The notes below the pieces were generated by a model. That model saw nothing but the letters and a program-made list of their open reading frames with translations. It was not told the origin of the DNA and searched no databases. Shown piece by piece: positions 1 through 12,506 of a DNA stretch of 42,874 nucleotides (position 1 is its first letter; the number at the start of each line of letters is the position of its first letter). The position numbers and the translations under genes were made by a program. This DNA comes from a virus: IMG/VR virus record IMGVR_UViG_3300021364_000051, positions 1 to 42,874 of that record; one strand, written 5' to 3'.

Positions 1-248
1 CTGTAGAGTTGGCACTCATCTATGCAAACCGTGATGCCAGTGACAATATCACCTTCACATTCCCTCTGACTATCACACCATTTACTTACGGTAGTGGAAC
101 TGTTGGTCGTGGTTATCTGCTGAGACCAACCATTACTGCATATATGGCAAATGATCAGGATGTTAATTCCAGATCACTTCTAGCAATCAAAGCAGATAAT
201 CCAATCCTTGTTAATCCAATCGCAGTCCTCTTTACTATACAACGATGA
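1..248 (+). CDS. Partial structural protein, C-terminal end
   Basis: The reading frame is open from the window edge to a stop at 246-248, so this is the 3' end of a gene that begins upstream. The visible part is rich in Thr, Ile and Phe with alternating polar and hydrophobic residues (for example the stretch NITFTFPLTITPF), as expected of beta-rich phage virion proteins. No family is recognised. Its stop overlaps the start of the next gene (ATGA), so the two are probably translated as a pair; since the next gene looks like a surface adhesin, this is likely another tail-fibre or capsid decoration component. TTG at 9 could start a 79-residue protein, but an open upstream frame makes a longer gene more likely. 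Confidence 0.6.
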   Translation, partial: VELALIYANRDASDNITFTFPLTITPFTYGSGTVGRGYLLRPTITAYMANDQDVNSRSLLAIKADNPILVNPIAVLFTIQR

Positions 249-1861
249 ATACAATTAGAGTAGTACATAATCATGCAGGCAACTGTATCAACTTTTATAA
301 CTCAACACAACCTGTGTTTTGGAATGGTTGTCTCAGTGCAAGTGTTGCTGCTGGAACAACAGATAGAATTAATATTGAAAATAGTATTAGGGACGTAGGT
401 ACTGGTAGTAGCATCTACGAATTCTTTAGAGTTCCATATACCTTATTTGTTGATGCTGATAATGTCGGGTTCACCAGTGCTCAGGGTGCCGTAAATTATA
501 TCAATGATGCTGCTAATACTATCAGTCAAACCAGTAGGTTTATTCTGAGTGATGCGGATACCATTGATTTCAAGGTTGATGACTCCTTCAGCACTATTCT
601 GTTGGACAATGGTGATGAGTATCCCACTGACTACCTTAAGGCATCTGCAAGTGGAGATAACATCAATATCACAACTCTGCAGTCATCATCAGAGATTATC
701 ATCTATGAGGGATTGAGAGTTGCAAACGTAACCGTTAATGGTGTTGGTCTTGGAACCACACAAGGAAATGTAGTTAATGATTTGAACTCTTTGTTCACAC
801 AAACTGGTGGATCACAACCTCCAGTCATCTCCTCAGCTAGTTCTATTAGTGTTGGTGTTGGTTCTATTATCAACTATGAAGCAACAACAACTGGTGGTGA
901 AGTAGCAGCATTTGAGTGGACTAATCTACCAGAAGGTATCACTCAGGTTACTAACCACCCACAGAAACTGATTGGTGGTTCTGATTTGAATGCTGGTACA
1001 TACACAATGACACTGAGAGCACACAACTATGTTGGGATGGCAAAGACTACCATTACACTTAATGTAACTCAAGATTATACAAACTCAAAATCCACACAGT
1101 TTGATGACACTGAATATACCATCAGAACAAGACAGAGTGGTGAATTTTCAAATCTGTATAAACCAAGTGGTTCAGCAATGCCTGCCCATAGTTATTCTAT
1201 GTGGTTCAAACCAGTCTCATCAAGTAATCCTCCCAATAACCAATCCGTTTTCTTTGCCTTTAGTCAGTTAGGAACATTTAGTGGAACAAGTTATATTGAT
1301 CTCAGGTGGCTAGGACCTAATGCTAGTAATCAAAGACTTAGATTACAGTATTCTGTTTCAGGTAGTAGTAATAGATTGACATTACTCACTGATGTGGGAA
1401 CAATTCCTGCTGATGGTACTTGGAAACATATTGTTGTAACATTTGATGGAGCCACTGATGGTTTACTAGAAGCTACTCCATATACTTTAAAAATTTATAT
1501 TAATGGTTCAGAAGTATCGACCACTTCAACTACATTCAGTCAAGGTGGTGGAGTTGCTGATAGTGATGGAGCAATCGAACCTGTATTTGTTGGGTTTGGT
1601 CGTAACCCATCTGGTTTCCACCTGAGAGGTTCTCTCATTGATGAGTTTGGATATTGGAACCAAGAACTTACGTCATCTCAAGTTTCTAGTCTCTACAACT
1701 CTGGAGCACCATCCGACCTCACTGCCTTCAGTCCATCAGCTGCTCACGTTTATAGAATGGGTGATGGTGATACCTTCCCAACTATTGAGGATAGAGTCGG
1801 AAATGCAGACCAGACAATGACTAATATGTCTTCTTCTGCTTTCGTAACTGAAGTTCCTTAA
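245..1861 (+). CDS. Virion adhesin-like protein, Ig-like plus LamG-like domains
   Basis: A 538-residue protein with three parts. Residues about 1-190 are beta-rich with no recognised family. Residues about 194-278 look like a bacterial Ig-like domain: they begin PPVISSASSISVGVGS and end AGTYTMTLRAHNYVG, like PIG/cadherin-like folds. Residues about 312-485 look like a LamG/concanavalin-type jelly roll: SYSMWFKP near the start, WKHIVVTFDG and LKIYINGSEV in the middle, and GSLIDEFGYWNQELTSSQV near the end. Such domains in phages usually bind surface sugars and sit on fibres or capsid decorations. The start ATG overlaps the previous stop. An inverted repeat and a terminator follow immediately, so it ends a late operon. 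Family call is by eye. Confidence 0.75.
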   Translation: MNTIRVVHNHAGNCINFYNSTQPVFWNGCLSASVAAGTTDRINIENSIRDVGTGSSIYEFFRVPYTLFVDADNVGFTSAQGAVNYINDAANTISQTSRFILSDADTIDFKVDDSFSTILLDNGDEYPTDYLKASASGDNINITTLQSSSEIIIYEGLRVANVTVNGVGLGTTQGNVVNDLNSLFTQTGGSQPPVISSASSISVGVGSIINYEATTTGGEVAAFEWTNLPEGITQVTNHPQKLIGGSDLNAGTYTMTLRAHNYVGMAKTTITLNVTQDYTNSKSTQFDDTEYTIRTRQSGEFSNLYKPSGSAMPAHSYSMWFKPVSSSNPPNNQSVFFAFSQLGTFSGTSYIDLRWLGPNASNQRLRLQYSVSGSSNRLTLLTDVGTIPADGTWKHIVVTFDGATDGLLEATPYTLKIYINGSEVSTTSTTFSQGGGVADSDGAIEPVFVGFGRNPSGFHLRGSLIDEFGYWNQELTSSQVSSLYNSGAPSDLTAFSPSAAHVYRMGDGDTFPTIEDRVGNADQTMTNMSSSAFVTEVP

Positions 1862-1913
1862 CCTTTAATAAGGATTTCTCTTATTAAAGGAAACCCACTA
1901 AACCTTTAATAAG
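1862..1913. repeat. Perfect 11-bp inverted repeat plus a third copy of the arm
   Basis: CCTTTAATAAG at 1862-1872 is followed after a 7-base loop by its exact complement CTTATTAAAGG at 1880-1890. The same arm, CCTTTAATAAG, recurs in direct orientation at 1903-1913. The hairpin directly follows the stop of the adhesin gene but has no T tract of its own, so it may act as an mRNA 3' end stabiliser. The third arm can compete for pairing with the 1880-1890 arm. Confidence 0.7.
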
Positions 1914-1934
1914 ACCACTTCCACAACCGTCACA

Positions 1935-1960
1935 GCACTCCTTGCACGGGGTGCTTTTTT
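1935..1960 (+). terminator. Intrinsic terminator
   Basis: GCACTCC (1935-1941) pairs with GGGGTGC (1948-1954, one T-G pair) around a 6-base loop TTGCAC, and a run of six T (1955-1960) follows. It ends transcription from the upstream structural genes. The loop is also the -35 element of the promoter listed next. Confidence 0.85.
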
Positions 1961-1970
1961 ATTGTATAAT
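1942..1970 (+). promoter_or_regulatory. Sigma-70 type promoter sharing the terminator loop
   Basis: TTGCAC at 1942-1947 and TATAAT at 1965-1970 are separated by exactly 17 bases. Expected transcription start is about 1977, just ahead of the gene at 1994. The -35 hexamer is the loop of the terminator hairpin and the T tract is part of the spacer. Confidence 0.75.
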
Positions 1971-1993
1971 ACTCTTATAGTCAATCAGGAACT

Positions 1994-2242
1994 ATGACTG
2001 AACAAGAAAGAAAGGCATTGAATAAACTAACACAAGAACAAATAAAAACCCTTGAAGATGCATTTAATTCAATTCCAGAAAAACTGAGAACTGGAAAGTA
2101 TAAAACTATGGAAGGAATTGAAGAACAACTTGCGAGTGGTACTAAAATTATCTTTTATATGAAATGTGAAGGTAAAGTTGATAAAGATGGTGAATATAAA
2201 GAGTTTGAAATGAAGGGTATGAAACTTGGTGAAGATGACTGA
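1994..2242 (+). CDS. Hypothetical protein, 82 aa
   Basis: Unrecognised. Highly charged and soluble: the first 40 residues are Glu/Lys/Gln rich (MTEQERKALNKLTQEQI) and probably helical, and the C-terminal half alternates in a beta pattern (TKIIFYMKCEGKV) with one cysteine. AGGA lies about 5 bases before the ATG, supporting this start. The gene is alone between two terminator/promoter units, so it is a single-gene cassette with its own strong early-type promoter. No function can be inferred. Confidence 0.7.
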   Translation: MTEQERKALNKLTQEQIKTLEDAFNSIPEKLRTGKYKTMEGIEEQLASGTKIIFYMKCEGKVDKDGEYKEFEMKGMKLGEDD

Positions 2243-2270
2243 AGAACAACAAGAACTGTATGACATCACA

Positions 2271-2296
2271 GCACTCTTTGACACGAGTGCTTTTTT
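2271..2296 (+). terminator. Intrinsic terminator
   Basis: GCACTC (2271-2276) pairs with GAGTGC (2285-2290) around an 8-base loop TTTGACAC, followed by six T. It is nearly the same as the terminator at 1935-1960 and ends the single-gene transcript from 1994. Confidence 0.85.
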
Positions 2297-2306
2297 ATTG
2301 TATAAT
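2278..2306 (+). promoter_or_regulatory. Perfect consensus sigma-70 promoter inside a terminator
   Basis: TTGACA at 2278-2283 and TATAAT at 2301-2306 with 17-base spacing. The -35 lies wholly inside the terminator loop. Predicted start of transcription is near 2313, upstream of the exported-protein genes from 2335. Confidence 0.85.
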
Positions 2307-2334
2307 ATTTTATACAGGATATCAATTAATTATT

Positions 2335-2493
2335 ATGTACTCATTTCTTCCTGGTTTACTTTCTCTCTGTTTTAATACAATTGTTCTTTGTGAGACGACT
2401 CCAATCTCCGGAACAGAGTATTATCACGATGAGAAGTCTTGTTATGTTGATGGAGTTTTCTATAAGAAATGTGAGGATTTTCAAGATGATTGA
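2335..2493 (+). CDS. Small exported protein, 52 aa
   Basis: ATG at 2335 is the first in-frame ATG after the promoter at 2278-2306, which excludes the longer frame. The N-terminus (MYSFLPGLLSLCFNTIVLC) is a hydrophobic segment like a signal peptide or lipoprotein signal. It is followed by a short polar tail with three more cysteines or cysteine-flanking charged residues (SCYVDGVFYKKCEDF). Suggests a periplasmic or membrane-attached small protein. It overlaps the next gene by 8 bases. Function unknown. Confidence 0.55.
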   Translation: MYSFLPGLLSLCFNTIVLCETTPISGTEYYHDEKSCYVDGVFYKKCEDFQDD

Positions 2494-2716
2494 ACTCACA
2501 CTTATGGTACTCTTAAACTCTGTTGCGATTGATTTTTGTAAGTATCGAGAGCAAGACAATGATGTCCTGAAGTCTGTACTTTTAGCATATACTGATGCAA
2601 ATCAAAAGTATGGAAGTGATAATGTCAAGGAAGTGATTGAACGGTCTGATAACATTAAGTTTCTTGCAATCGCAACTGTGATTACGAAGTGTCCAACACA
2701 ACTGGGAGGATTATGA
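2486..2716 (+). CDS. Small protein with hydrophobic N-terminus, 76 aa
   Basis: Starts at ATG 2486 inside the end of the previous gene. The first about 17 residues (MIELTLMVLLNSVAIDF) could be a signal or a membrane segment. The remainder is polar with an Asn/Asp-rich helix-like region and a hydrophobic end (FLAIATVITKC). No family recognised. The stop overlaps the next ATG (ATGA at 2713), so it is co-translated within a run of short, possibly envelope-directed genes. Confidence 0.5.
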   Translation: MIELTLMVLLNSVAIDFCKYREQDNDVLKSVLLAYTDANQKYGSDNVKEVIERSDNIKFLAIATVITKCPTQLGGL

Positions 2717-3066
2717 AATATCTACTTGCACCATTACTGTTTATTTTACCGGCACATTCACACACCAATGATTTCAATATTGTGGTGAATGGAAAGTGTG
2801 ATGTGTTCTCTTATAACACAAGGGAAAGAGTGAAATGTGTTGTGATTAATCTTGGTGACGGAGGTTATGTTACCAATGTCAATGATAATCAAGTTTATAT
2901 CAATGAAAGTATTGATAAGATGTATATTAATGGAAAGGAATGTAATGTTCCTAGTATTAAATCAAACAATGCGGCAATATCAAGTATCTGTATGTCAACT
3001 CCCGATCTTTATACTGTTGTGATGCCAATTCGTTCTGAACTTGAGGGTAATGCAAACTATTATTAA
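2713..3066 (+). CDS. Secreted protein with signal peptide, 117 aa
   Basis: GGGAGG lies 4 bases before ATG 2713. The N-terminus MKYLLAPLLFILPAHS is a classic Sec signal peptide (basic residue, hydrophobic core, small residues at a likely cleavage site). The mature part has paired cysteines (GKCDVF, RVKCVV, GKECNV, SSICMS), which fits disulfide bonds in the periplasm, and a beta-rich pattern. Third consecutive short gene with an export-like N-terminus; the group may act on the host envelope during infection. That role is inference only. Confidence 0.65.
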   Translation: MKYLLAPLLFILPAHSHTNDFNIVVNGKCDVFSYNTRERVKCVVINLGDGGYVTNVNDNQVYINESIDKMYINGKECNVPSIKSNNAAISSICMSTPDLYTVVMPIRSELEGNANYY

Positions 3067-3250
3067 TCATGCATCTGCATTTTGGACTGTCGTAGTAATG
3101 AACTGCATTCAACCTGTGAATTGGCAATATTGTCTTCCAATTAACGAATGGTTATTTCCAGAAGTTATGATTGGTATTCAATATTATATTGACAAAGATA
3201 TGAATTTTTTGTATAATAATGAACGAGATTACTTAAAAAACCTCAAATGA
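3050..3250 (+). CDS. Hypothetical protein, 66 aa
   Basis: Starts at ATG 3050 after GAGGG, overlapping the previous stop, and its stop overlaps talC (ATGA at 3247), the tight packing typical of real genes here. Aromatic and hydrophobic (SAFWTVVVMNCIQPVNW, WLFPEVMIGIQYY), possibly membrane-associated. A perfect promoter for talC lies within its 3' end. The protein is not recognised and could be poorly conserved. Confidence 0.45.
   Translation: MQTIINHASAFWTVVVMNCIQPVNWQYCLPINEWLFPEVMIGIQYYIDKDMNFLYNNERDYLKNLK
3189..3217 (+). promoter_or_regulatory. Consensus sigma-70 promoter for talC
   Basis: TTGACA 3189-3194 and TATAAT 3212-3217 with 17-base spacing, lying inside the 3' end of the preceding gene. 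Transcription would start near 3224, giving talC a leader of about 23 bases. Confidence 0.85.
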
Positions 3251-3894
3251 AAATTTTTCTTGACACTGCAGATACTGAAATCATCGGTAAGTATTTTGAA
3301 ACTGGTTTGATTGATGGTGTCACTACTAATCCATCATTGATTATGAAAGCAGGACGAGATCCTGAAGTTGTTTATCAAGAGATTAAAGATATTGGAGTCA
3401 AAGATATTAGTATGGAAGTTATGGGTGATGCCCAAACTATGCTATCTGAAGGACTTCGATTATCTGAAAAATTTGGAAGTGTTTCTACAATCAAACTTCC
3501 ATGCACACGGGAAGGTCTTTTGGTTTGTAAGGAACTCTCTAAGGAGAAGATCCGTACTAACGTCACATTGATCTTCTGTGCTTCTCAAGCAGTCCTAGCA
3601 GCAAAGGCTGGTGCAACTTATGTCTCACCCTTTGTGGGACGTTTGGACGATCAATCAGTTGCGGGTCTAGAGGTTGTACGATCTATCACAGAACTCTATT
3701 GTTCTCACCGAATGGAAACTAAAGTTCTTGCGGCATCAATTCGTACTGTTCAACGTGCGATTCGTTCTTGGTACAATGGTGCTGAGATTTGTACAATGCC
3801 ACCTAAAGTTTTTGACGCAATGTATGATCACATTTTGACTGACAAAGGTCTTGAAATCTTTGATCGTGATGCTGCTAAGATTGTAAAGGCATGA
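3247..3894 (+). CDS. talC: Transaldolase, TalC/FSA-like
   Basis: A 215-residue small-type transaldolase of the TalC/fructose-6-phosphate aldolase subfamily, a (beta/alpha)8 barrel. It opens MKIFLDTADTEIIGKY and has the VTTNPSLIMK motif at about residues 25-34. The Schiff-base lysine is Lys83 in STIKLPCT, with the TNVTLIF and YVSPFVGRLDD motifs following. It interconverts sugar phosphates in the pentose phosphate pathway. In marine cyanophages talC is a well-known host-derived gene that, with CP12, diverts carbon from the Calvin cycle to NADPH and ribose for nucleotides. Length is normal and it looks intact. It has its own consensus promoter and overlaps both neighbours. Confidence 0.95.
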   Translation: MKIFLDTADTEIIGKYFETGLIDGVTTNPSLIMKAGRDPEVVYQEIKDIGVKDISMEVMGDAQTMLSEGLRLSEKFGSVSTIKLPCTREGLLVCKELSKEKIRTNVTLIFCASQAVLAAKAGATYVSPFVGRLDDQSVAGLEVVRSITELYCSHRMETKVLAASIRTVQRAIRSWYNGAEICTMPPKVFDAMYDHILTDKGLEIFDRDAAKIVKA

Positions 3895-4094
3895 CTTTAA
3901 AAACTTTTTCACAAACTTCAGATGGTTTATATGATCGTCATGTTTATAAATTGAATGTTCCTGGACATCAGTCAGTTATAATTGAAGATTATGAAATACT
4001 TCGTGCGGTATGGTTTGAAAAATTCGATGCTTTTAAAGGTTGTACTGTAGAAATACTTGACGTAAAACCGAAAAAAAATAAAGGATTTGGTTGA
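3891..4094 (+). CDS. Conserved cyanophage hypothetical, 67 aa
   Basis: ATGA overlap with talC indicates translational coupling. The small protein has a beta-rich middle (HVYKLNVPGHQSVIIEDY) and ends in a basic tail (KPKKNKGFG). I recall similar short proteins in other cyanophages but no function. The last gene before a terminator at 4160. Confidence 0.6.
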   Translation: MTLKTFSQTSDGLYDRHVYKLNVPGHQSVIIEDYEILRAVWFEKFDAFKGCTVEILDVKPKKNKGFG

Positions 4095-4159
4095 CTAAAT
4101 AATTGCATGAGAGTTGAAACACTCTATATGCAAAGTCAAAAACACTTTTAATACTCTCA

Positions 4160-4191
4160 GGGTAGTCCCGTTACGGGTCTGCCCTTTTTTT
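4160..4191 (+). terminator. Intrinsic terminator after the talC operon
   Basis: GGGTAG (4160-4165) pairs with CTGCCC (4179-4184); inside, after a T-T mismatch, CCCG pairs with CGGG around a TTA loop. Seven T follow. Strong hairpin with T tract. Confidence 0.9.
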
Positions 4192-4209
4192 GTCCTTTAC
4201 TCGTATTGT

Positions 4210-4596
4210 ATGGATCTTTACGCAACTCCTCAAGGATATCTCTATAACTTGCACACCGTAAACAGAAAGGAAGCTAAGAAAATGTGGAGAAAAAAAATTA
4301 AAGAGCAGTGGGACAATCAGTGTGCTTACTGCGGTTCAACAGAGAATCTTACGATAGACCATGTGGTTCCAAAATCTAAAGGAGGAACAAATTTTACCCA
4401 AAATGTAATTTGCTCATGTTTATCATGCAATGGATCTAAAGCAAATACGGAGTGGGAAGAGTGGTATTTAAATCAAGATTTCTTCCAAGAAGCAAACAAG
4501 AGACGTATTCAAGAATGGATAGGACATCAAGAGGACGGTAAAGTTAAGTTGTATCGATACAAACCTAGACGTAATTACATTCTAGGAGTAGCATAA
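4210..4596 (+). CDS. HNH endonuclease, free-standing
   Basis: A 128-residue protein with an HNH (McrA-like) nuclease core. Zinc-binding CAYCG at about residue 38 is followed by LTIDHVVPKSKGG (the His-containing first strand), then FTQNVI and CLSCNGSK (second CxxC). The conserved Asp-His, Asn and cysteine pairs are all present. Likely a homing endonuclease or nicking nuclease. I chose ATG 4210 because upstream in-frame TTG codons lie in the terminator. The gene is enclosed by terminators at 4160 and 4625, as expected of a self-contained insertion between the talC operon and the glutaredoxin gene. Its target is unknown. Confidence 0.85.
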   Translation: MDLYATPQGYLYNLHTVNRKEAKKMWRKKIKEQWDNQCAYCGSTENLTIDHVVPKSKGGTNFTQNVICSCLSCNGSKANTEWEEWYLNQDFFQEANKRRIQEWIGHQEDGKVKLYRYKPRRNYILGVA

Positions 4597-4624
4597 TCTG
4601 TATATATAATGAACAATATAGAGA

Positions 4625-4649
4625 GAGTCTAAAATTTAGGCTCTTTTTT
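4625..4649 (+). terminator. Intrinsic terminator after HNH gene
   Basis: GAGTCTAA (4625-4632) pairs with TTAGGCTC (4636-4643, one T-G pair) around an AAT loop, followed by six T. Together with 4160-4191 it isolates the HNH gene transcriptionally. Confidence 0.85.
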
Positions 4650-4650
4650 A

Positions 4651-4677
4651 TTGCATAAAAAAATTTCATGCTATAAT
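4651..4677 (+). promoter_or_regulatory. Probable promoter for glutaredoxin operon
   Basis: TATAAT at 4672-4677 is a perfect -10. The best -35 is TTGCAT at 4651-4656, but its 15-base spacing is short. It again lies directly after a terminator T tract, 16 bases before the ATG at 4693. Confidence 0.55.
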
Positions 4678-4692
4678 AAAAAGGTTACTAAA

Positions 4693-4938
4693 ATGAAACA
4701 GAACATGTTTACAATTTACTCAAAAACTGGATGTCCATATTGTGATAAAATCAAGAGAATTATGGAACTTGCAAAATTCGATTATGTTGCTTATACACTT
4801 GGTGTAGACTTTACTAGAGATGAATTCTATGCAGAATTTGGACAAGGATCTACATTTCCGCAAGTTATTATGGATGATAAAAAATTAGGTGGATGTACTG
4901 ATGCGGTAAAATATCTAAAAGAAAATAACATGGTATGA
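4693..4938 (+). CDS. Glutaredoxin
   Basis: An 81-residue thioredoxin-fold protein with the dithiol active site CPYC (YSKTGCPYCDKI, about residues 9-20). It has the cis-proline segment STFPQVIMDD and the glutathione-binding GGCTDAVKYL near the end. Glutaredoxins pass electrons from glutathione to ribonucleotide reductase, and cyanophages often carry one to support dNTP synthesis. ATG 4693 is chosen because it follows the promoter at 4651-4677 and gives the normal family length; TTG 4651 would lie within the promoter. The stop overlaps the next start. Confidence 0.9.
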   Translation: MKQNMFTIYSKTGCPYCDKIKRIMELAKFDYVAYTLGVDFTRDEFYAEFGQGSTFPQVIMDDKKLGGCTDAVKYLKENNMV

Positions 4939-5153
4939 CACTTGAAAAAAATATTCCAGAAAATAAACTAAATAGTGTTGATCGTGGGTTTGAATTAATA
5001 CTATCTCATAGGAGGACAGAGAAAAAAGAAGAACCCCAAAAGTCTTTTGTCTTAAATTTTAAATTATTTAAATTTGAGTTGACTTTTGAGATAAAAAAAC
5101 AAAGTTCTCAAGAAGAGGAGAAAAAACCATGCAAGAAGCACTCATTGCAGTAA
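4935..5153 (+). CDS. Hypothetical charged protein, 72 aa
   Basis: Coupled to the glutaredoxin gene by an ATGA overlap and overlapping the next gene by 25 bases. Lys/Glu rich with an amphipathic Phe-rich centre (FVLNFKLFKFELTFEIKK) and a very polar end. Unrecognised. Its 3' end contains the strong ribosome site GAGGAG for the next gene. Confidence 0.5.
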   Translation: MTLEKNIPENKLNSVDRGFELILSHRRTEKKEEPQKSFVLNFKLFKFELTFEIKKQSSQEEEKKPCKKHSLQ

Positions 5154-5347
5154 GCATATTACTCTTGATTTCTTATGTGTTTATTGGTATAATTGTGGGA
5201 TGGTTAGTAAGGGAAAATCTTTACTCCTACAAAGGATATACACATCCAGAAATGTTTGATGAGAACGGTAATGTTTTACCTGATGAAATTTTAGCAGTAC
5301 GATTTGAAAACAGTTATGACAACTACGAAACAGAGGAAGACGATTGA
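5129..5347 (+). CDS. Single-span membrane protein, 72 aa
   Basis: GAGGAG precedes ATG 5129 by about 8 bases. Residues about 5-27 (ALIAVSILLLISYVFIGIIV) form one transmembrane helix followed by WLVREN, suggesting the polar, acidic C-terminus faces the cytoplasm. Similar small membrane proteins sit at this spot in other cyanophages as far as I recall. It overlaps the DUF6433-like gene by 32 bases, indicating co-translation. Confidence 0.7.
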   Translation: MQEALIAVSILLLISYVFIGIIVGWLVRENLYSYKGYTHPEMFDENGNVLPDEILAVRFENSYDNYETEEDD

Positions 5348-5867
5348 TCCTCTTCCTACAAATGCCTTTATGCATGAAATTCTTGAATTGGTATCCAAAC
5401 AAAGAAGTAATGCTAAAAAAGTAGAAGTTCTTCAGAAAAATGATTGTCTCCCTTTAAAATCAATTCTTATTTGGAATTTTGATGAATCAGTTATTTCACT
5501 TCTTCCTGAAGGAGATGTTCCATACGGAAACCTGAAGGAAGATGTAACTGCTTCTGGAAGTCTTTCGGATAAAATTAAAACATCCTCGCAACAAAATAAT
5601 ACTATTGCTGAAGAATCACTGAGAGCAAAGAAGACATCTATTCGTAAGGAAAGTTCAAAGTTTTATAATTTTGTAAAAGGTGGTAATGATTCACTCTCTT
5701 CTATTCGGAGAGAAGTTATGTTTATCAATATTCTTGAAGGTCTTCATCCAGAAGAAGCAGAAATTTTATGTCTTGTGAAGGATAAAAAACTTGAGACTAA
5801 GTATAAAATTAGTAAAGCAAATGTTGAACAAGCATACCCTGACATCAATTGGGGAGGTCGCAGTTGA
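5316..5867 (+). CDS. Conserved cyanophage protein, DUF6433-like
   Basis: A 183-residue protein I recognise as the conserved cyanophage family DUF6433. Marks are TIDPLPTNAFMHEILELVS near the start, ILIWNFDESVISLLPEGDVPY at about 50-70, FYNFVKGGNDSLSSIRRE at about 120, and LEGLHPEEAEILCLVKDKKL near the end. The middle (about 75-115) is a Ser-rich variable linker. ATG 5316 is chosen over 5304 because it gives the family's usual N-terminus. Function is unknown; universal presence suggests a core role. It is coupled with the next gene. Confidence 0.8.
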   Translation: MTTTKQRKTIDPLPTNAFMHEILELVSKQRSNAKKVEVLQKNDCLPLKSILIWNFDESVISLLPEGDVPYGNLKEDVTASGSLSDKIKTSSQQNNTIAEESLRAKKTSIRKESSKFYNFVKGGNDSLSSIRREVMFINILEGLHPEEAEILCLVKDKKLETKYKISKANVEQAYPDINWGGRS

Positions 5868-6142
5868 AATTTAAGTATATTCAACAAGATTGCGATCCAA
5901 CTTTAGCTGATGATACATCTCTACCAACAAATTCGTTTTTGGTAGAGTATGTTATTGATAAGACAATTCACTATGATATTGTCATGGCAAATAAGCAAGT
6001 GGATATATTTGATTATTATTGGGATCACTTTAGACATGATCTATTGACATTTAATCAGACTAAAGGAAAAATTAATCCTAAGTTGTGGGGATATAAATCT
6101 TCTTCAGAAAAAAAGAAATCAAAAAAGAGAGATGATGACTAA
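5864..6142 (+). CDS. Conserved cyanophage protein, TTG start
   Basis: A 92-residue protein starting at TTG 5864, preceded by GGGGAGG at a spacing of 6 bases. No ATG is suitably placed, and the family N-terminus (M)KFKYIQQDCDP fits. Contains LPTNSFLVEYVID, VDIFDYYWDHF and NPKLWGYK, then a Lys-rich tail. I recall this protein next to the DUF6433 gene in many cyanophages. No function known. The rare start codon with an ideal ribosome site may tune its level. Confidence 0.75.
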   Translation: MKFKYIQQDCDPTLADDTSLPTNSFLVEYVIDKTIHYDIVMANKQVDIFDYYWDHFRHDLLTFNQTKGKINPKLWGYKSSSEKKKSKKRDDD

Positions 6143-6356
6143 AGGTTTTGGTGGATTTGCTAATAACAATATAGATGATTCTAAAGATGGTAAGGCAAAA
6201 ATTACTATTGATCAACGTGAGGTTGATAAACTTCTGAAAGAATATAAAAAAATTAAAAAATATATGAAGTCTTCTATTTTTCAAGTTAAGACTATGGATG
6301 AGACTGAAGAAATAGTCAGTCAGTTAATTCAAGAAGCAAAAGATATCGATCTCTAA
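6135..6356 (+). CDS. Hypothetical coiled protein, 73 aa
   Basis: Two adjacent ATGs (6132, 6135) overlap the preceding stop; I use the second because MTKGFGGFAN is the more typical N-terminus. The centre (VDKLLKEYKKIKKYMKSS) and the end (TEEIVSQLIQEAKDIDL) are helical and charged, suggesting a small helical hairpin. Not recognised. A late-type promoter motif overlaps its stop. Confidence 0.6.
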   Translation: MTKGFGGFANNNIDDSKDGKAKITIDQREVDKLLKEYKKIKKYMKSSIFQVKTMDETEEIVSQLIQEAKDIDL

Positions 6357-6359
6357 ATA
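6352..6359 (+). promoter_or_regulatory. Possible late promoter motif
   Basis: TCTAAATA 20 bases before the ATG at 6379 resembles the T4-like late promoter box (NATAAATA) with one mismatch. It may give the next gene an extra late transcript. Confidence 0.35.
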
Positions 6360-6378
6360 CTTCGGAACAAAAAGAATT

Positions 6379-6693
6379 ATGCTTTCTACACAATATCGAT
6401 TAAAGTTAGAATTTATTTGTAAGTGTATTGCAAATGGTGAAGAAGTAAAATTAGATGATATGATCTGGGCGGAGAAACTTGGAAAAGCAAATACAACTGC
6501 CAGAGAAATGCTTAAAAAGGCAAGACGACAGGCAACACAAGACATTGAAGAAGGAACTTTAGATGATTTTATGAATCGGATGGGACTAGGTGATCCCGAC
6601 CCATCCAACCATAAAACACAATTTGAGGGCGCAGATGACATCAACGAATGGTTCAGACGAGACAGTCCAGAAGACTGGTTACAAAGAGATTAA
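6379..6693 (+). CDS. Conserved cyanophage protein, 104 aa
   Basis: Helical N-terminal part (YRLKLEFICKCIANGEEV), basic centre (REMLKKARRQATQDIEEG) and an acidic, aromatic end (INEWFRRDSPEDWLQRD). I recall proteins of this type in cyanophage genomes, without function. It overlaps the next gene by about 59 bases, a long overlap for this genome, so the start of the next one is less sure. Confidence 0.7.
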   Translation: MLSTQYRLKLEFICKCIANGEEVKLDDMIWAEKLGKANTTAREMLKKARRQATQDIEEGTLDDFMNRMGLGDPDPSNHKTQFEGADDINEWFRRDSPEDWLQRD

Positions 6694-6817
6694 GATCACT
6701 CCCGAAACTTTCGTGGAGATGAATAAGGAATTTGAAAGAGAAGGCACACGGGTCACAATCAGAGTTCCAACTCAGGAAGAGATTGACGAATGGAAGCAAT
6801 GGAGGCAGCATGACTAA
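6635..6817 (+). CDS. Small protein, 60 aa; start uncertain
   Basis: ATG 6635 gives an N-terminal DETVQKTGYKEIKITPETFVEM followed by FEREGTRVTIRVPTQEEIDEW. The second half is clearly protein-like and short phage homologues are familiar to me. A shorter version from ATG 6719 is possible. It overlaps the previous gene in a different frame and the next start by 8 bases. Confidence 0.55.
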   Translation: MTSTNGSDETVQKTGYKEIKITPETFVEMNKEFEREGTRVTIRVPTQEEIDEWKQWRQHD

Positions 6818-6983
6818 GGTTGATCCTGACAAACTCAGAGAAGAAACTAACAGGGTGATTGCTGATAACCTTGTAAAGAATATTGAAAAACTTTTAGATG
6901 GAACAGCAAGATATTACACTTGCTGTGATAAAAAAACTGAGCATAAAAAAATTGTAATTGAGTATAACCACAAGCAAAAATGA
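6810..6983 (+). CDS. Small protein, 57 aa
   Basis: ATG 6810 overlaps the previous stop. Helical N-terminus (DPDKLREETNRVIADNLVKN) followed by a vicinal cysteine pair (YYTCCDKKTEH), which could bind metal. Its stop overlaps the next ATG (ATGA at 6980). Function unknown. Confidence 0.55.
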   Translation: MTKVDPDKLREETNRVIADNLVKNIEKLLDGTARYYTCCDKKTEHKKIVIEYNHKQK

Positions 6984-7147
6984 CAGATAAAGAAAAATGG
7001 AATAGAGGATTAGATCTATTCATCGAAAGTGTTCATAAACCAGATTCTAGACTTAGGGGGTGTGCTCATAATCAAGAATGTTATCATGAACTAATGTGGG
7101 TTCGTGAAAATGTTCTTAAATATCTTGAAACTCTAAGGTATCGTTAA
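6980..7147 (+). CDS. Small protein, 55 aa
   Basis: Short gene reading ATG 6980 to TAA 7145-7147, coupled to its neighbour by ATGA. Begins MTDKEKWNRGLDLFIES and has RGCAHNQECYHELMWVRENV, with two Cys and two His (C..HNQEC.H) spaced as a possible small metal site, then a helix ending ETLRYR. Unrecognised. Last gene before a promoter at 7175. Confidence 0.55.
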   Translation: MTDKEKWNRGLDLFIESVHKPDSRLRGCAHNQECYHELMWVRENVLKYLETLRYR

Positions 7148-7174
7148 AAATTGTATCACGTTTTACAAAACACT

Positions 7175-7203
7175 TTGCATATATACTATACGAGTGCTAT
7201 AAT
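7175..7203 (+). promoter_or_regulatory. Sigma-70 type promoter
   Basis: TTGCAT 7175-7180 and TATAAT 7198-7203, spacing exactly 17. Predicted transcription start about 7210, giving a leader of about 12 bases for the gene at 7222. Confidence 0.8.
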
Positions 7204-7221
7204 GCACTTACGTTCATCCAA

Positions 7222-7422
7222 ATGCTTAGTTTACTTCTGGCTTTTACCTTAGTCCATCATCAAGACGGTTCCTCCTACGGGTGGCACATGTCGTGTGAAA
7301 GGTTCCAACAGAGAAGAGTTGAAATCCTTATGGATGACAACTTAGATCTTCGATCTAAGTATAACCTTATTGGTTATCTTAAGTCAAAGGTTAAAGGTAA
7401 ATGCGACAGTAAACTAATCTAG
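7222..7422 (+). CDS. Small exported protein, 66 aa
   Basis: Hydrophobic start MLSLLLAFTLVHHQDG resembles a short signal peptide, followed by a soluble part with two cysteines (HMSCERFQQRRVEIL and KGKCDSK) that could form a disulfide. I recall a related small protein in other cyanophages. No ribosome site is evident, in keeping with a very short leader. It is first in a run of three to four small genes under the promoter at 7175. Confidence 0.65.
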   Translation: MLSLLLAFTLVHHQDGSSYGWHMSCERFQQRRVEILMDDNLDLRSKYNLIGYLKSKVKGKCDSKLI

Positions 7423-7457
7423 GACGCAAGTAAGTCGCGGAACGGACCGTTCATCTC
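7423..7457 (+). other. Intergenic spacer with palindrome GAACGG-A-CCGTTC
   Basis: This G/C-rich 35-base spacer stands out against its AT-rich surroundings. It holds the near-palindrome GAACGGACCGTTC at about 7440-7452 and an AAGT...AAGTCGCG stretch. A second spacer at 7653-7719 also carries GGAACGG and hairpin-forming sequence. Both directly precede small genes and may be translational control elements. Confidence 0.4.
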
Positions 7458-7652
7458 ATGAAATACATTTTATTATTTTCACTTCTTTTATTTCCTACAT
7501 CTTCACTTGCAATGTCTTGTGATGATGTTAAGGAAGTATTTGCTGTTGTGAAAGAAGATCCAAACTTATCTAGCAAAGAAAAGACTCTCATTGCGATGGG
7601 TCTTTTTGCAAAGTATGGAAATTCTTGTATTTCAAGAGACGCAAACGACTGA
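7458..7652 (+). CDS. Small periplasmic protein with signal peptide, 64 aa
   Basis: MKYILLFSLLLFPTSSLA is a clear Sec signal peptide with a probable cut after SLA. The mature part of about 46 residues is helical and acidic/basic with two cysteines (MSCDDVKEVF and GNSCISRD) positioned to form one disulfide. Pattern resembles the previous gene, so the two may act together in the periplasm. Function unknown. Confidence 0.7.
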   Translation: MKYILLFSLLLFPTSSLAMSCDDVKEVFAVVKEDPNLSSKEKTLIAMGLFAKYGNSCISRDAND

Positions 7653-7719
7653 AGGAACGGGGAAACGGATCCTGCGTAAGCAGAGAAGGTTAACTTTCCA
7701 TTCTTTTAGGAGTAAACAA

Positions 7720-7884
7720 ATGAACACACTTAATCTCATTCGTAAGCAGATCAACAAAGCATCTGCACTTCATGATGCACAGATTTCTCACACTGCATAT
7801 CGTGGTGTTAATTATCAGTGCGAGCAGAAGTCTGGGGAAACTCATGGCACTTTCTGCTATAGAGGTCGTACCTACGTTAAGTGA
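7720..7884 (+). CDS. DUF4278-like protein, 54 aa
   Basis: ATG 7720 has AGGAG 7 bases upstream. The protein begins MNTLNLIRKQINKASALHD and carries SHTAYRGVNY and GTFCYRGRTYVK. The repeated YRG..Y motif is the mark of DUF4278, a small family shared by cyanobacteria and their phages. Function is not known. It is the last gene before the terminator at 7901. Confidence 0.8.
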   Translation: MNTLNLIRKQINKASALHDAQISHTAYRGVNYQCEQKSGETHGTFCYRGRTYVK

Positions 7885-7900
7885 AGAAACTAATGAGTGA

Positions 7901-7926
7901 GGACCTGCTTGACAGGTCCTTTTTTT
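7901..7926 (+). terminator. Intrinsic terminator
   Basis: GGACCTG (7901-7907) pairs perfectly with CAGGTCC (7913-7919) around CTTGA, followed by seven T. It ends the small-gene transcript that begins near 7210. Confidence 0.92.
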
Positions 7927-7937
7927 ACGCTTATAAT
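7909..7937 (+). promoter_or_regulatory. Perfect consensus promoter overlapping the terminator
   Basis: TTGACA 7909-7914 spans the terminator loop and the first bases of its 3' arm; TATAAT is at 7932-7937, 17 bases downstream. This is the third terminator/promoter fusion in the window. Transcription should start near 7944. Confidence 0.85.
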
Positions 7938-7958
7938 TAGTATAGCAGATTTTATGCG

Positions 7959-8126
7959 ATGGACAAAGAAAAACTAAAACTAATCATTAAAAACTTAGAA
8001 TCTTTGATAGACTGTTTAAAATCAGAAGTTTATTCTGAACCTGAAGCATATATGCAAAGAGATTATCCTGAAATTACAGACTATGATGAAGTTTTTATTG
8101 ATGACGATGATGGATATCCAGATTAA
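7959..8126 (+). CDS. Small acidic protein, 55 aa
   Basis: ATG 7959 to TAA 8124-8126, just downstream of the promoter at 7909-7937. Starts MDKEKLKLIIKNLESLIDCL, a likely helix, and ends with a strongly acidic tail (DEVFIDDDDGYPD). I recall a near-identical arrangement in other cyanophages. Acidic phage proteins of this size often bind host regulators or nucleic-acid enzymes, but nothing specific supports that here. Confidence 0.65.
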   Translation: MDKEKLKLIIKNLESLIDCLKSEVYSEPEAYMQRDYPEITDYDEVFIDDDDGYPD

Positions 8127-8135
8127 GAGGTAATT

Positions 8136-8324
8136 ATGTACGAAGAATTAAATTGCTTTGAAGAGGCATTAAAACATTTTGGTACTAGGGTAGAGATGAT
8201 CACTGCCATGGAGATGGGAAGAAAGATTAGTCCAGAAGATGCCTACCAAATGATTAAAAACGAACTGAAAGATCTTAAGAAAGTTCGTAAAGAATATAAA
8301 GAAAAGGGGTGTGAGGGATGTTAA
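8136..8324 (+). CDS. Small helical protein, 62 aa
   Basis: AGAGG lies about 6 bases before ATG 8136. Contains LNCFEEALKHFGTRVEMITA, then ISPEDAYQMIKNELKDLKK, two amphipathic helices, and a C-terminal KGCEGC cysteine pair. I recall this family in cyanophages without function. The next gene begins directly after its stop. Confidence 0.65.
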   Translation: MYEELNCFEEALKHFGTRVEMITAMEMGRKISPEDAYQMIKNELKDLKKVRKEYKEKGCEGC

Positions 8325-8750
8325 GTGGTGCATAAATTATGTGGAACTCATTCTGCTGGGTTTAGTGAGGATTATGGTGATTGGAGAATAAATCCATCAT
8401 TTAAAATGATTCTAGATTTGGATGACATTAAACATTTACTAAATGATGACAGAATTCAAATAATCGAGCACAAAGATATTGGGTGGAAAGGAAGACATTT
8501 GGATGGAATGAGCTCTGGTCCTGAATGTATATGTTGTGATGGTGAGAGATATCGAGATTGTGACCCAAGATTTCCTGGTATAATTGTTGATGGTGCTCCA
8601 AATCCCTATAATAAAAGATATCGAATGATTGATGGGAAGCATAGGATTTCAAAACTATGTAATACGGGTGTCAAGAAAAGTCCATTTTATGTTTTAGATT
8701 ACAAAGAAGTTAAACCATTTTTTGAAATAGATCGAAGAGAATATGAATAA
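8325..8750 (+). CDS. ParB/Srx-like fold protein with cysteine cluster
   Basis: A 141-residue protein starting at GTG 8325 (or GTG 8328), after GAGGG. Near the end it has RYRMIDGKHRISKLCNTG, which matches the DGxHR motif of ParB/sulfiredoxin-like domains. At about residues 65-77 a cysteine cluster (CICCDGERYRDC) could bind metal. The N-terminus (INPSFKMILDLDDIKHLL) fits the first strand of such a domain. ParB-like domains bind or cut DNA, or use nucleotides; which applies here is unknown. It overlaps thyX by 8 bases. Confidence 0.6.
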   Translation: MVHKLCGTHSAGFSEDYGDWRINPSFKMILDLDDIKHLLNDDRIQIIEHKDIGWKGRHLDGMSSGPECICCDGERYRDCDPRFPGIIVDGAPNPYNKRYRMIDGKHRISKLCNTGVKKSPFYVLDYKEVKPFFEIDRREYE

Positions 8751-9411
8751 ATCCAAACTAATCTCTGTTACTCCTGATGCTGAGAAGCATATGGCATACT
8801 GTGCTAGGGTAAGTAATCCTTTAAACCAAACCAATGAAAAAATTTCTGGTCTTTTAAAATATTGTATCAAGCATCAGCACTGGAGCATCTTTGAGCAAGC
8901 ATTTATGACTCTTGAGATCGAAACTACTAGAGGAATAGCAGCTCAAATACTTCGACATAGAAGTTTCACATATCAAGAATTTTCACAAAGGTATGCCGAT
9001 TCATCTTTACTTAGTGATGCAATTCCTCTACCAGAACTTCGTCGTCAAGATACAAAAAATCGTCAAAATAGTATCGATGATATTGATGAATTTACAAAGC
9101 AAAGGTTTGAAATATTAATGCGTCGTTATTTTGATGAAGGTATGGATCTTTATCGAGAAATGCTTGATGTTGGAATTGCAAAAGAATGTGCTCGATTTGT
9201 GCTTCCTCTTGCTGTACCTACCAGACTTTATATGACTGGTTCTGTAAGATCATGGATCCATTACATTGATCTGAGGACTGCTAACGGTACACAGAAGGAG
9301 CATATGGATATTGCAGAATCTGCAAAGTGTATTTTCTGCTGCCAGTTTCCGACCATTGCAGAGGCACTAGAGTGGAATAGATCTGAAGATTGCCCAGATT
9401 GTCCTGATTAA
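8743..9411 (+). CDS. thyX: FAD-dependent thymidylate synthase ThyX
   Basis: A 222-residue flavin-dependent thymidylate synthase that makes dTMP from dUMP using methylene-tetrahydrofolate, FAD and NADPH. The signature RHRX7S is present as RHRSFTYQEFS (about residues 72-82), followed by QRYAD. HWSIFEQAFMTLEIETTRG and LPLAVPTRLYMTGSVRSWIHY are also typical. Length is close to the family norm and it appears intact. In cyanophages ThyX supports genome replication; here it lies immediately upstream of the carbamoyltransferase cluster, 45 bases away. The C-terminus has an unusual Cys/Asp-rich tail (SEDCPDCPD). Confidence 0.93.
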   Translation: MNKSKLISVTPDAEKHMAYCARVSNPLNQTNEKISGLLKYCIKHQHWSIFEQAFMTLEIETTRGIAAQILRHRSFTYQEFSQRYADSSLLSDAIPLPELRRQDTKNRQNSIDDIDEFTKQRFEILMRRYFDEGMDLYREMLDVGIAKECARFVLPLAVPTRLYMTGSVRSWIHYIDLRTANGTQKEHMDIAESAKCIFCCQFPTIAEALEWNRSEDCPDCPD

Positions 9412-9427
9412 CCTTCTATCATGTTAG

Positions 9428-9435
9428 AATAAATA
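9428..9435 (+). promoter_or_regulatory. Possible late promoter before carbamoyltransferase cluster
   Basis: AATAAATA 22 bases ahead of ATG 9457 matches the T4-like late box NATAAATA. It is the only promoter-like element I see in the 45-base gap after thyX. If used, the carbamoyltransferase genes would be late genes. Confidence 0.45.
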
Positions 9436-9456
9436 TTACATACAAAAAGTTTTAGT

Positions 9457-10026
9457 ATGAAAGTCATAAGAAATATAACTTATGAAAAAGTTGCAAATCT
9501 TATATACTCCAATAAAATTGTTGCAATTTTTCAGGGAAATGATGAGGGTGGTCCTAGAGCTTTAGGTAATAGGTCCATTCTCTTTAATCCTATTCACTAT
9601 TCAATGCTTCATAAGGTAAACGAAGTAAAATTAAGAGAATGGTATAGACCTTTTGCAGGATCTATTTTACTTGATGATTTTGAAGATTGGTTTATAAATG
9701 GATCAATAAAAGAATCTCCCTTTATGACTTTTGCAATAGAACTTAAACCAGAAAAGATTGCCAAAATACCTGCAATAGTTCATATGAATAAAACTTGCAG
9801 AGTACAGACAGTAACTCAAGAACAAAATAAGCATTATTATAATCTTATTTCTGCTTTCAAAAAAGTTAGTGGAGTTCCTATCATTGGGAATACATCTTTC
9901 AATTTAGCAAGACAACCAATTGTTCATTCAATTAGAGATGCTTTAGAGACTTTTGATGTATCAAATATTGATTATTTGTATCTTCCAGAAAAAGCATGTT
10001 TAATTCAATCAGAAGTTGGAGAATAA
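9457..10026 (+). CDS. Stand-alone C-terminal (YrdC-like) domain of carbamoyltransferase, copy 1
   Basis: A 189-residue protein equal to the C-terminal domain of NodU/CmcH/TobZ O-carbamoyltransferases. Signature GPRALGNRSILFNP is at about residues 30-43, then LREWYRPFAGSIL, ESPFMTFAI, TCRVQTVTQ and GNTSFNLARQPIV. In TobZ this YrdC-like half makes carbamoyladenylate from ATP and carbamoyl phosphate and passes it to the N-terminal Kae1-like half. Here the halves are separate genes and the order is reversed, with the C half first. It ends 4 bases before the next start. All the family motifs appear, so it is probably active with a partner from 10031, 11293 or 13064. Confidence 0.88.
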   Translation: MKVIRNITYEKVANLIYSNKIVAIFQGNDEGGPRALGNRSILFNPIHYSMLHKVNEVKLREWYRPFAGSILLDDFEDWFINGSIKESPFMTFAIELKPEKIAKIPAIVHMNKTCRVQTVTQEQNKHYYNLISAFKKVSGVPIIGNTSFNLARQPIVHSIRDALETFDVSNIDYLYLPEKACLIQSEVGE

Positions 10027-10030
10027 TAAA

Positions 10031-11278
10031 ATGTATATTTTAGGTATTAATATATCTCATGATTCATCATGCTGTCTTTTAAAGGATGGTGAACTTATTT
10101 GGTTTAGTGAAGATGAGAGATTATTTCGAGAAAAAAATGACAATCGATATGAAGATGAAGTATCGCACTATTATGATTTTAAAGAAATTAAAACTGCAAA
10201 ATTTCTTCACTGCGATAATATAAAAAAATATACACACAATATTGATTATGTTGTTTTTGCATCTTTTGGTAGGCATTATCCTCTAGATGACAATATTATA
10301 ATGCAGTCCATTATTAAAAAATTGGGTGAGGAACGTATTGATTTTACTTCGGCATTATTTTTCCCAGAAAAACATCACATATATCACGCTGCTAATGCAT
10401 TTTATGCATCAGGATTTGATGATGCAGTTGCATTGATAATGGATGGTGGTGGAGCGTATGATCCACAATACAGAGAAAAAATTACCTCCAATAAATGTAA
10501 GTTTCCTTTCAGAGAAGTGGAAACTATATACGATTGTTCATATAATACTTCTGAATTTAAGAAAGTATTTCAATTAAATTCTATGTTAGATGAACTTCCA
10601 GATGAAGATTTTGATAATTATCAAGACTTTTTTTGGAAGAGAGATTGGAATGAATATTACTCTAGGTCTGACAGTGCTGGAAACTTGTTTGCTTCAGCAA
10701 CTAATATTCTTAATATGAATTATAATGACCAGGGAAAAGTTATGGGATTATCTGGTCATAGACTTTCAGATTCAGAATTTGGATTTAATCCTGAAGTTAA
10801 TGTTATTAATGACGGAGAGAAAAAAACATTTGATCCTTCAGAGTTTATTTTGACAGCAGATTGGTACTATGAAAAAGATGGTATATCTCTTTCAAAACCA
10901 TTGGTTATGAATTTTATTGATGACTTTCTTGATAGAAATGAAATAGATTTAGATCTTAAAGAAAATACATGGGATTTTTATGTGTGTGCTGAGATTGCAT
11001 ACAAATTACAAGTAGAAACATTTAAACACACATGCACTTTAATTGAAAAGGCAATAAAACTGACTGGTAAAAAGAAAATTGTTCTCTCCGGAGGATATTT
11101 TTTAAATTGTGTTAATAACTATAAGTATACTCGAAAGTTCCCAGAATTAGAATTTTTTGTCGATCCAATTCCACATGATGCTGGTACTGCAATCGGTGCT
11201 GCCAAATATGTCTGGTATGGTTTAACTAAAAGTAAAGATAAAAATCCACTTAAAAATTTATACATAGGACTATCATAA
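10031..11278 (+). CDS. Stand-alone N-terminal (Kae1-like) domain of carbamoyltransferase, copy 1
   Basis: A 415-residue ASKHA-fold half of a NodU/TobZ-type carbamoyltransferase. Motifs are ILGINISHDSSCCLLKDG at the start, SEDERLFREK, the metal-binding EKHHIYHAANAF (about residue 114), VALIMDGGGAYD, GKVMGLSGHRL, and the sugar/nucleotide-binding VLSGGYFLNC with DPIPHDAGTAIGAA near the end. The C-terminal catalytic half is missing and encoded by the preceding gene. I use ATG 10031, preceded by GGAG at 9 bases. It is the most divergent of the three N halves (GGYFLN rather than GGVALN), so it may accept a different substrate. Confidence 0.88.
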   Translation: MYILGINISHDSSCCLLKDGELIWFSEDERLFREKNDNRYEDEVSHYYDFKEIKTAKFLHCDNIKKYTHNIDYVVFASFGRHYPLDDNIIMQSIIKKLGEERIDFTSALFFPEKHHIYHAANAFYASGFDDAVALIMDGGGAYDPQYREKITSNKCKFPFREVETIYDCSYNTSEFKKVFQLNSMLDELPDEDFDNYQDFFWKRDWNEYYSRSDSAGNLFASATNILNMNYNDQGKVMGLSGHRLSDSEFGFNPEVNVINDGEKKTFDPSEFILTADWYYEKDGISLSKPLVMNFIDDFLDRNEIDLDLKENTWDFYVCAEIAYKLQVETFKHTCTLIEKAIKLTGKKKIVLSGGYFLNCVNNYKYTRKFPELEFFVDPIPHDAGTAIGAAKYVWYGLTKSKDKNPLKNLYIGLS

Positions 11279-11292
11279 AAAAGTAATTCATA

Positions 11293-12504
11293 ATGAATAT
11301 TGCTGCAATTTCTTTAACTAATCATGATTGCTCTCTTTGTATACTAAAAGATGATGAAGTTTATGAAAATATTTTAGAAGAAAGATTATCAACTCTCAAA
11401 AAAGATGGGAAATTTTTTTTCCTATCAGAAAGACTTAGTAAATTTGAACAAGAATATGGTTTAGATAAAATTTATATTGGAAATATTGGTGGTGAAGATG
11501 TAAAATTAATTGAGTTATATCTGGAGAAATATAATATAAATTGTCCGGTTGAATATAATTTTGATGAGCATCATCTTTACCACGCATCTAGTGCATATTA
11601 TTTTTCTGGATTTGATGAATGTATGTGTTTAGTTATGGATGGTTGGGGAGCTCAACATAAACTGGAAGATATTTTTTATATTATTGATGAGTTAAATGAT
11701 TCTAATGCAGATGAACTGCAATCATTTTCAGAAACTAATTTTTCAGAAACGACTAGTGTTTACTTAGTGAAAGATAGTAATTTTGAAATAGTTTATAGAA
11801 ACTATCTTATGAGTCCATCATATACTTTTATGAGTGATGATTTCAAAAACTATCATTCAATAATTGTTGATAGTGATATGATTGATGTTAATACTTTCTT
11901 AGATATTGGCATGATGTATGGTAGGACTACCGAGCATTTAGGATTTGATAATACTGATGGTGGGAAAACAATGGGCCTTGCTGCTTATGGTAAAGAAGAT
12001 CCAGAACTACCATCATTTTTGAATGATACTAAATTATTTGCAAATTCTAATATATTCTCTTATCTATTTTTTAATTGGACATATCATCCACATTTATCAC
12101 ATAATGATGATTTACAAAGAAAAGCAAATATTGCATATAAATTACAAAGGTCTGTTGAAGATGCTATTGTTCTTAGAGTTGGTAAAATTTTAGAAAAATA
12201 TCCAGATACAAAAAACCTTGCTTTTTCTGGTGGTGTTGCATTAAATATTTGTGCTAATTCTGCAATCAAAAAAGCATATCCAGATTTAAATCTTTTCATT
12301 GACCCAATAGCATCAGATGCATGTCAAGCATATGGGATAGCAAAATTTTATTCTAATGTGGATAGAAAGAATATAAAAAATAAACCATTAGAAACAATAT
12401 ACATGGGTCCAAAATATGATTTGAAAATGAAAAAAATAGAAATTGAAATTGCTGTTGCAAAAGAAAACAAAAAAAGGTATAATAGTATCAAAGGAAAAGT
12501 ATAA
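11293..12504 (+). CDS. Stand-alone N-terminal domain of carbamoyltransferase, copy 2
   Basis: A 403-residue N half. It shows NHDCSLCILKDDEV, LEERLSTLKKDGKFF, the metal site DEHHLYHASSAYYFSGF, CLVMDGWGAQ, TMGLAAYGKED and FSGGVALNICANSAI, ending in DPIASDACQAYG. It is plainly closer to the third N half than to the first: both share GWG after the DG motif and GGVALNICANS. It stops 2 bases before the second C half, a natural N-C pair. In the known enzymes this domain binds the acceptor hydroxyl and receives carbamoyl from carbamoyladenylate. The acceptor here is unknown. Confidence 0.88.
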   Translation: MNIAAISLTNHDCSLCILKDDEVYENILEERLSTLKKDGKFFFLSERLSKFEQEYGLDKIYIGNIGGEDVKLIELYLEKYNINCPVEYNFDEHHLYHASSAYYFSGFDECMCLVMDGWGAQHKLEDIFYIIDELNDSNADELQSFSETNFSETTSVYLVKDSNFEIVYRNYLMSPSYTFMSDDFKNYHSIIVDSDMIDVNTFLDIGMMYGRTTEHLGFDNTDGGKTMGLAAYGKEDPELPSFLNDTKLFANSNIFSYLFFNWTYHPHLSHNDDLQRKANIAYKLQRSVEDAIVLRVGKILEKYPDTKNLAFSGGVALNICANSAIKKAYPDLNLFIDPIASDACQAYGIAKFYSNVDRKNIKNKPLETIYMGPKYDLKMKKIEIEIAVAKENKKRYNSIKGKV

Positions 12505-12506
12505 CT

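Follow-up and report, generated by a model that had tools for sequence, protein, structure and literature searches.

What is the role of a short intergenic sequence in which a putative transcription terminator and a putative promoter occupy the same bases, and why should it recur on both sides of a single small gene? Cyanophages carry photosynthesis genes together with small genes that differ rapidly between isolates. The window analyzed here, i.e., the whole stretch of 42,874 bp (42.9-kb) of an IMG/VR record, is a fragment of a T4-like cyanophage, and its closest annotated relative is Synechococcus phage S-SCSM1.

Anatomy of the cassettes in the window

Two units on the plus strand, at 1931-1971 and 2267-2307, are identical at 35 of 41 positions, as claimed in the preliminary description, and their flanking sequences are unrelated. 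The first unit belongs to a cassette of about 58 nt (1914-1972), delimited by alignment and by pairwise homology from -37 to +21 around the core, in which the 5' motif CCACTTCCNNAACNGTCACA (1915-1934), conserved in the unit, is followed by a predicted terminator hairpin (1934-1955), a T-run lying within the promoter spacer (1955-1960) and the -10 box TATAAT (1965-1970). The stem AGCACTCC/GGGGTGCT (1934-1941/1948-1955) encloses the loop TTGCAC, which coincides exactly with the -35 position (1942-1947); with a spacer of 17 nt, transcription would start near 1977. The second unit (2267-2307) is devoid of most of the 5' motif. Its predicted hairpin (2270-2291) has the stem AGCACTC/GAGTGCT (2270-2276/2285-2291) and the loop TTTGACAC (2277-2284) containing the -35 box TTGACA (2278-2283), followed by a T-run (2291-2296) and, after a spacer of 17 nt, by TATAAT (2301-2306), for an expected start near 2313. 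The geometry first proposed, with a loop acting as -35, TATAAT 17 bases further on and the T-tract in between, is found in both copies, but a strong -35 is correct for copy 2 only: the promoter of copy 2 matches the consensus at 12/12 positions, whereas the -35 of copy 1 matches TTGACA at 3/6 only.

A third nested composite (7899-7937, plus strand), absent from the preliminary description and with a counterpart in S-SCSM1, has a stem (GAGGACCTG/CAGGTCCTT) different from those of the other two. Its TTGACA (7909-7914) spans the loop and the 3' arm, its TATAAT is at 7932-7937 and the promoter is again 12/12. The hairpin energies predicted for the three composites are -12.2, -9.7, and -13.7 kcal/mol, respectively, and the three occurrences in the window compare with 14 in total over 200 dinucleotide shuffles (about 0.07 per shuffle). 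Other arrangements can be found nearby. At 3189-3217, just 5' of a talC-like gene at 3247, a 12/12 consensus promoter has a T-tract in its spacer and is without a clear hairpin, while a terminator and a promoter follow each other in tandem, un-nested, at 4619-4677, a similar one being present in S-SCSM1 (L122, near 8230). A known RNA family as the identity of the element was rejected, as Rfam gave no convincing match over window positions 1-10000 (best E 0.11 and 0.56, both far under gathering).

Regarding the gene neighborhood, cassette 1 is preceded by a gene for a 538-aa protein with a Laminin_G_3 domain, and an 82-aa gene (1994-2242, plus strand) lies between the two cassettes; among the relatives of this gene is the 3' part of a 103-aa ORF found 3' of psbD (locus L372). 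Cassette 2 cuts off the 5' remnant of a small gene (MTEEQQELYD..., 2235-2266, plus strand) of which an intact relative exists at locus L398, and a 52-aa ORF (2335-2493, plus strand) is the expected first gene read from promoter 2. The reading frame of the truncated small gene is open through terminator 2 (2235-2375), so that a translating ribosome might weaken this terminator.

Comparative evidence for a proposed terminator-promoter fusion

A scan of IMG/VR with GTGNTTTTTTATTGTATAAT yielded, among the matches listed, 106 distinct units, the window and three further loci included. A hairpin is present in 104 of these 106 listed units, the free stem base N being paired as C-G (59), G-C (41), T-A (3), or A-T (1). 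Since the hairpin finder itself requires pairing, the arms were also permuted; a strong stem was obtained for 100 of the 106 true units listed, compared with a mean of 50.9 after permutation. For the putative terminator, a function expected of promoter-early stem-loop (PeSL) elements, the family units show a strong hairpin, a T-run and covariation in the stem. Independently of the family, sites of the form TTGACA-N7-TTTTT-N5-TATAAT in viral contigs have a matching 5' arm in 69 of the 114 listed, vs. 13.9 when permuted, a figure that is likely low because some sites scored as hairpin-less seem, by eye, to form a bipartite hairpin whose internal loop holds the -35. When the TTTTT was exchanged for AAAAA (A5 control), the viral contigs gave 13/124 listed sites against 13.2 expected, and a generic property of AT-rich promoters was rejected on this basis. 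In bacterial contigs, the original site pattern gave 24/119 listed sites vs. 14.6 expected, i.e., a weak excess at k=5 inside the permutation range, by which a general bacterial feature was likewise rejected. Selection on the hairpin is supported by these sequence comparisons.

With regard to the promoter, hairpins were also retrieved by stem and T-run alone, the -10 not being required, which gave 107 hairpins among the matches listed. A -10 at a spacer of 16-18 nt follows 76 of these 107 listed hairpins, and the loop matches TTGACA at 4.6/6 positions with a -10 vs. 2.7/6 without (Mann-Whitney p = 5e-8; among the matches listed), statistics that overstate independence since related sequences share loops partly through descent. 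The loops without a -10 are mostly unlike TTGACA (AGCAAT, ATTGCT, GGAAAC), and some of the 31/107 listed hairpins lacking a -10 are unrelated terminators. A poor -35 (TTGCAC, TTCACA, TTTACG) is seen in copy 1 and in many family members, so the strength of these promoters may be variable or depend on the -10. Selection on the loop as a -35 in units with a -10 is nevertheless supported, and the proposed fusion of terminator and promoter is strengthened comparatively by the covarying stems, the TTGACA-like loop when a -10 is present and the fixed spacing of the -10.

The same hairpin can also be found 5' of the T4 late-promoter motif TATAAATA before another gene, at L525 (near 585), L429 (near 892), and L485 (near 1015), and a fourth fusion, with TATAAATA replacing TATAAT, is present on the minus strand of L460 (near 930 of the reversed locus). 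Since the hairpin is fused there to TATAAATA instead of TATAAT, this suggests that the unit allows an exchange between early and late control.

Distribution among cyanophages and relation to known elements

A BLAST search with copy 2 retrieved related units in cyanophage records, and in many isolates the unit is adjacent or close to the 3' side of psbD. It lies directly 3' of psbD in S-RIM12, S-CAM9, Syn1, and Sf-FS3, while one to three small genes intervene in S-SKS1, S-CAM4, and ACG-2014b; in Sf-FR1 it is placed after a second gene annotated as D1, and in the podovirus S-RIP1 after psbA and a small ORF. Overall, the genes flanking the family units fall into 43 upstream and 37 downstream clusters (among the matches listed). 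Many isolate pairs otherwise unlike within 900 nt on either side have only about 58 nt in common, beginning 37 nt ahead of the core and ending 21 nt past it, and the 5' motif is thus counted as part of the unit. This motif also occurs on its own, mostly as TGTGCCACTTCCYCAACTGTCACA, at 48 of 110 sites in other phage contigs, and Rfam gave no match for it at nine related loci. In one contig carrying two cassettes (L461), a group I intron is located at 6347-6631, near a PhotoRC-II RNA.

PeSL elements of the T4-like phages RB49/Phi1, PST, and nt-1 are said to have been described by Arbiol and coworkers in 2010 and by Comeau and coworkers in 2014, and in RB49/Phi1 encapsidated mini-circles reportedly form via exchange between neighboring PeSLs. 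The cyanophage unit is similar to these elements in that a putative terminator hairpin and a putative sigma-70 early promoter are joined in one short intergenic repeat, situated in regions of variable genes and probably acting as a recombination joint. Such a short unit is repeated among variable small genes, with two copies in the window and at least two in some T4-like cyanophage contigs. The architecture is different, however. The PeSL of RB49 is a tandem arrangement, in which a hairpin with a mostly GAAA/TTCG-like loop is followed by a T-tract, some 12-15 nt and then TTGACA-16-TATAAT, whereas the cyanophage unit, unlike RB49/Phi1, carries its -35 within the loop and its T-tract within the spacer. 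The tandem order is what the RB49/Phi1 sequences show, and it is not known to belong to a formal definition of PeSLs. The distance from the loop start to the -35 start is accordingly 29 nt in RB49 vs. about -1 to 1 nt in the nested units. PeSL promoters are strong and sigma-70-like; copies 2 and 3 of the window are 12/12, whereas the -35 of copy 1 is 3/6.

A pattern scan of whole records matched the nested form in S-PM2, P-SSM2, S-SRM01, S-SCSM1, S-SKS1, Syn1, and Sf-FR1, not all matches having a clear hairpin; in the same scan it was not found in T4, KVP40, Phi1, or RB49, and a reversed control pattern had zero matches. Distinct sites of the tandem pattern numbered 5 in Phi1 and 7 in RB49. 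A literature text search, with both primary PeSL papers outside its reach, found no paper on phage promoters embedded in terminator loops.

PeSLs are presented as composite promoter-terminator motifs mediating shuffling in T4-like phages in a 2015 study of S-PM2, which judges them an unlikely mechanism of gene acquisition in that cyanophage, where few were seen (PMC4503421). Other systems share part of the arrangement. The morons of lambdoid phages (named in PMC1524935) are similar in pairing a small gene with a promoter and a terminator of its own, but the moron idea does not involve a repeated homologous composite, whereas the present unit is common to two adjacent genes in a T4-like phage. 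Halovirus HF2, also a tailed virus, has repeats between its genes that carry promoters (PMC8707807), but differs in being archaeal. Considering that the claimed function is that of a PeSL and that the architecture is different, the element is filed as a PeSL variant; on sequence grounds, it is likely a nested one, separating transcription units and serving as a recombination joint.

Probable recombination at the cassette and alternative readings

At locus L372, where the gene order is psbA, psbD, cassette, 75-aa ORF, and 103-aa ORF, the cassette region is 94% identical to the window from 1859, where the upstream gene has its stop codon, to 1985, and the 82-aa gene is matched at 97% over 1993 to 2249. 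From this pattern of matches, the window has a different upstream gene and is without the 75-aa ORF. Locus L398 matches the window up to 2264 and has an intact copy of the next small gene, with a cassette about 460 nt beyond; the window's version of that gene is broken off by cassette 2 after about ten codons. Among isolates, Sf-FR1 and Sf-FS3 match at 91% between -897 and +25 and share nothing past this point.

Homology loss was surveyed over 87 loci, in pairs sharing sequence on one side and losing homology in range. It occurs at the cassette edge in 93 of 98 pairs that share upstream sequence and lose homology downstream, and in 36 of 41 pairs in the opposite direction, counts to be read with the caveat that a common cassette draws alignments to its edge and that gene ends are natural breakpoints. 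Wrong joins at repeats are possible in metagenome contigs, but this pattern is also seen in isolates. Pairs of cassettes enclose one gene, each time a different one, in L431, L461/L491, L477, and L530, and two or more genes in L452 and L528. The claim that the repeats recombine and swap single genes is supported by comparison: breakpoints lie at cassette edges and single genes are bracketed elsewhere, but among the relatives of the 82-aa gene (50 contigs, of which 42 were examined) none is bracketed by two cassettes. The 82-aa gene as a bracketed moving module was rejected accordingly, and for this gene joints alone are supported. Taken as a whole, the comparisons indicate that the element of about 58 bases is probably a joint for gene swapping among cyanophages.

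The unit would most likely be the intrinsic terminator of the upstream gene overlaid with a sigma-70-type early promoter of the downstream gene, the hairpin loop doubling as the -35 region and the T-tract occupying the spacer. In infected cells, host RNA polymerase (RNAP) would terminate at the T-tract and a new transcript would begin about 15 nt further on. As each copy has its own terminator and promoter, a gene entering by homologous recombination between two cassettes would be insulated from its neighbors and immediately expressed, which may be why the cassette is kept as a joint. The nesting itself might most simply be compaction, since a fixed 17-nt spacer with a T-tract leaves the hairpin no place except around the -35.

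Different explanations can nonetheless be considered. While it can be hypothesized that the terminator alone is functional, the loop and TATAAT being accidental or degenerate in a genome rich in AT, a reading in line with the many members with a weak -35 and the family hairpins without TATAAT, it is hard to reconcile with the -10 found at the exact spacing in most hairpins retrieved without requiring it, with the TTGACA-like loops when this -10 is present, with the 12/12 promoters of copies 2 and 3, and with the presence of hairpins at T5 but not at A5 control sites; it is regarded as highly improbable. Another possibility, raised in the preliminary description on geometric grounds, is that nesting couples termination to re-initiation, a polymerase that releases its RNA at the T-tract restarting on the next promoter without ever leaving the DNA. 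Geometrically, a complex terminating around 1960 or 2296 would extend over the promoter from -35 to -10. In vitro, E. coli RNAP remains bound to the DNA following intrinsic termination and starts again at nearby promoters, more so with added sigma (PMC6978380; PMC6978322), and coupling is plausible. However, post-termination RNAP is known to diffuse over long distances, so that precise nesting would be unnecessary for re-initiation; RB49 and Phi1 manage with tandem units, restarts are mostly antisense in PMC6978322, and a complex stalled there might just as well obstruct the promoter. As an explanation of the nesting, coupling is considered unlikely.

Regarding recombination, the element might be no joint at all and merely lie at gene boundaries that tolerate any mosaic breakpoint. 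Most breakpoints in the contigs are indeed near gene ends generally and most are away from family cassettes. On the other hand, over whole contigs 16-21% of breakpoints are near a family cassette vs. 4% of gene ends, a 4-5 fold difference, what otherwise unrelated contexts have in common is the cassette together with 17-20 nt, and cassettes are paired around single genes, which leaves the boundary explanation improbable compared with a recombination joint. A broader proposal, to which a low probability is given, would combine both themes: nesting would be kept by selection for direct hand-over of RNAP to the next promoter, and the unit would be a joint exchanging genes adjacent to psbA/psbD, including the exchange of early for T4-type late control (TATAAATA).

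In many isolates, the nested layout is close to psbD and homology ends at its edge, which offers a concrete and testable exchange joint; as a compact natural part, the unit may also combine termination and initiation within about 40 bp. Repeats of other kinds are present elsewhere in the window: long direct repeats (D11, D13) lie between adjacent ORFs at 10016-14284, where the counterpart region of S-SCSM1 is annotated as four carbamoyl transferases, and a glycine-rich repeat array (24672-25858) is found inside a 1476-aa ORF at 23139-27569.
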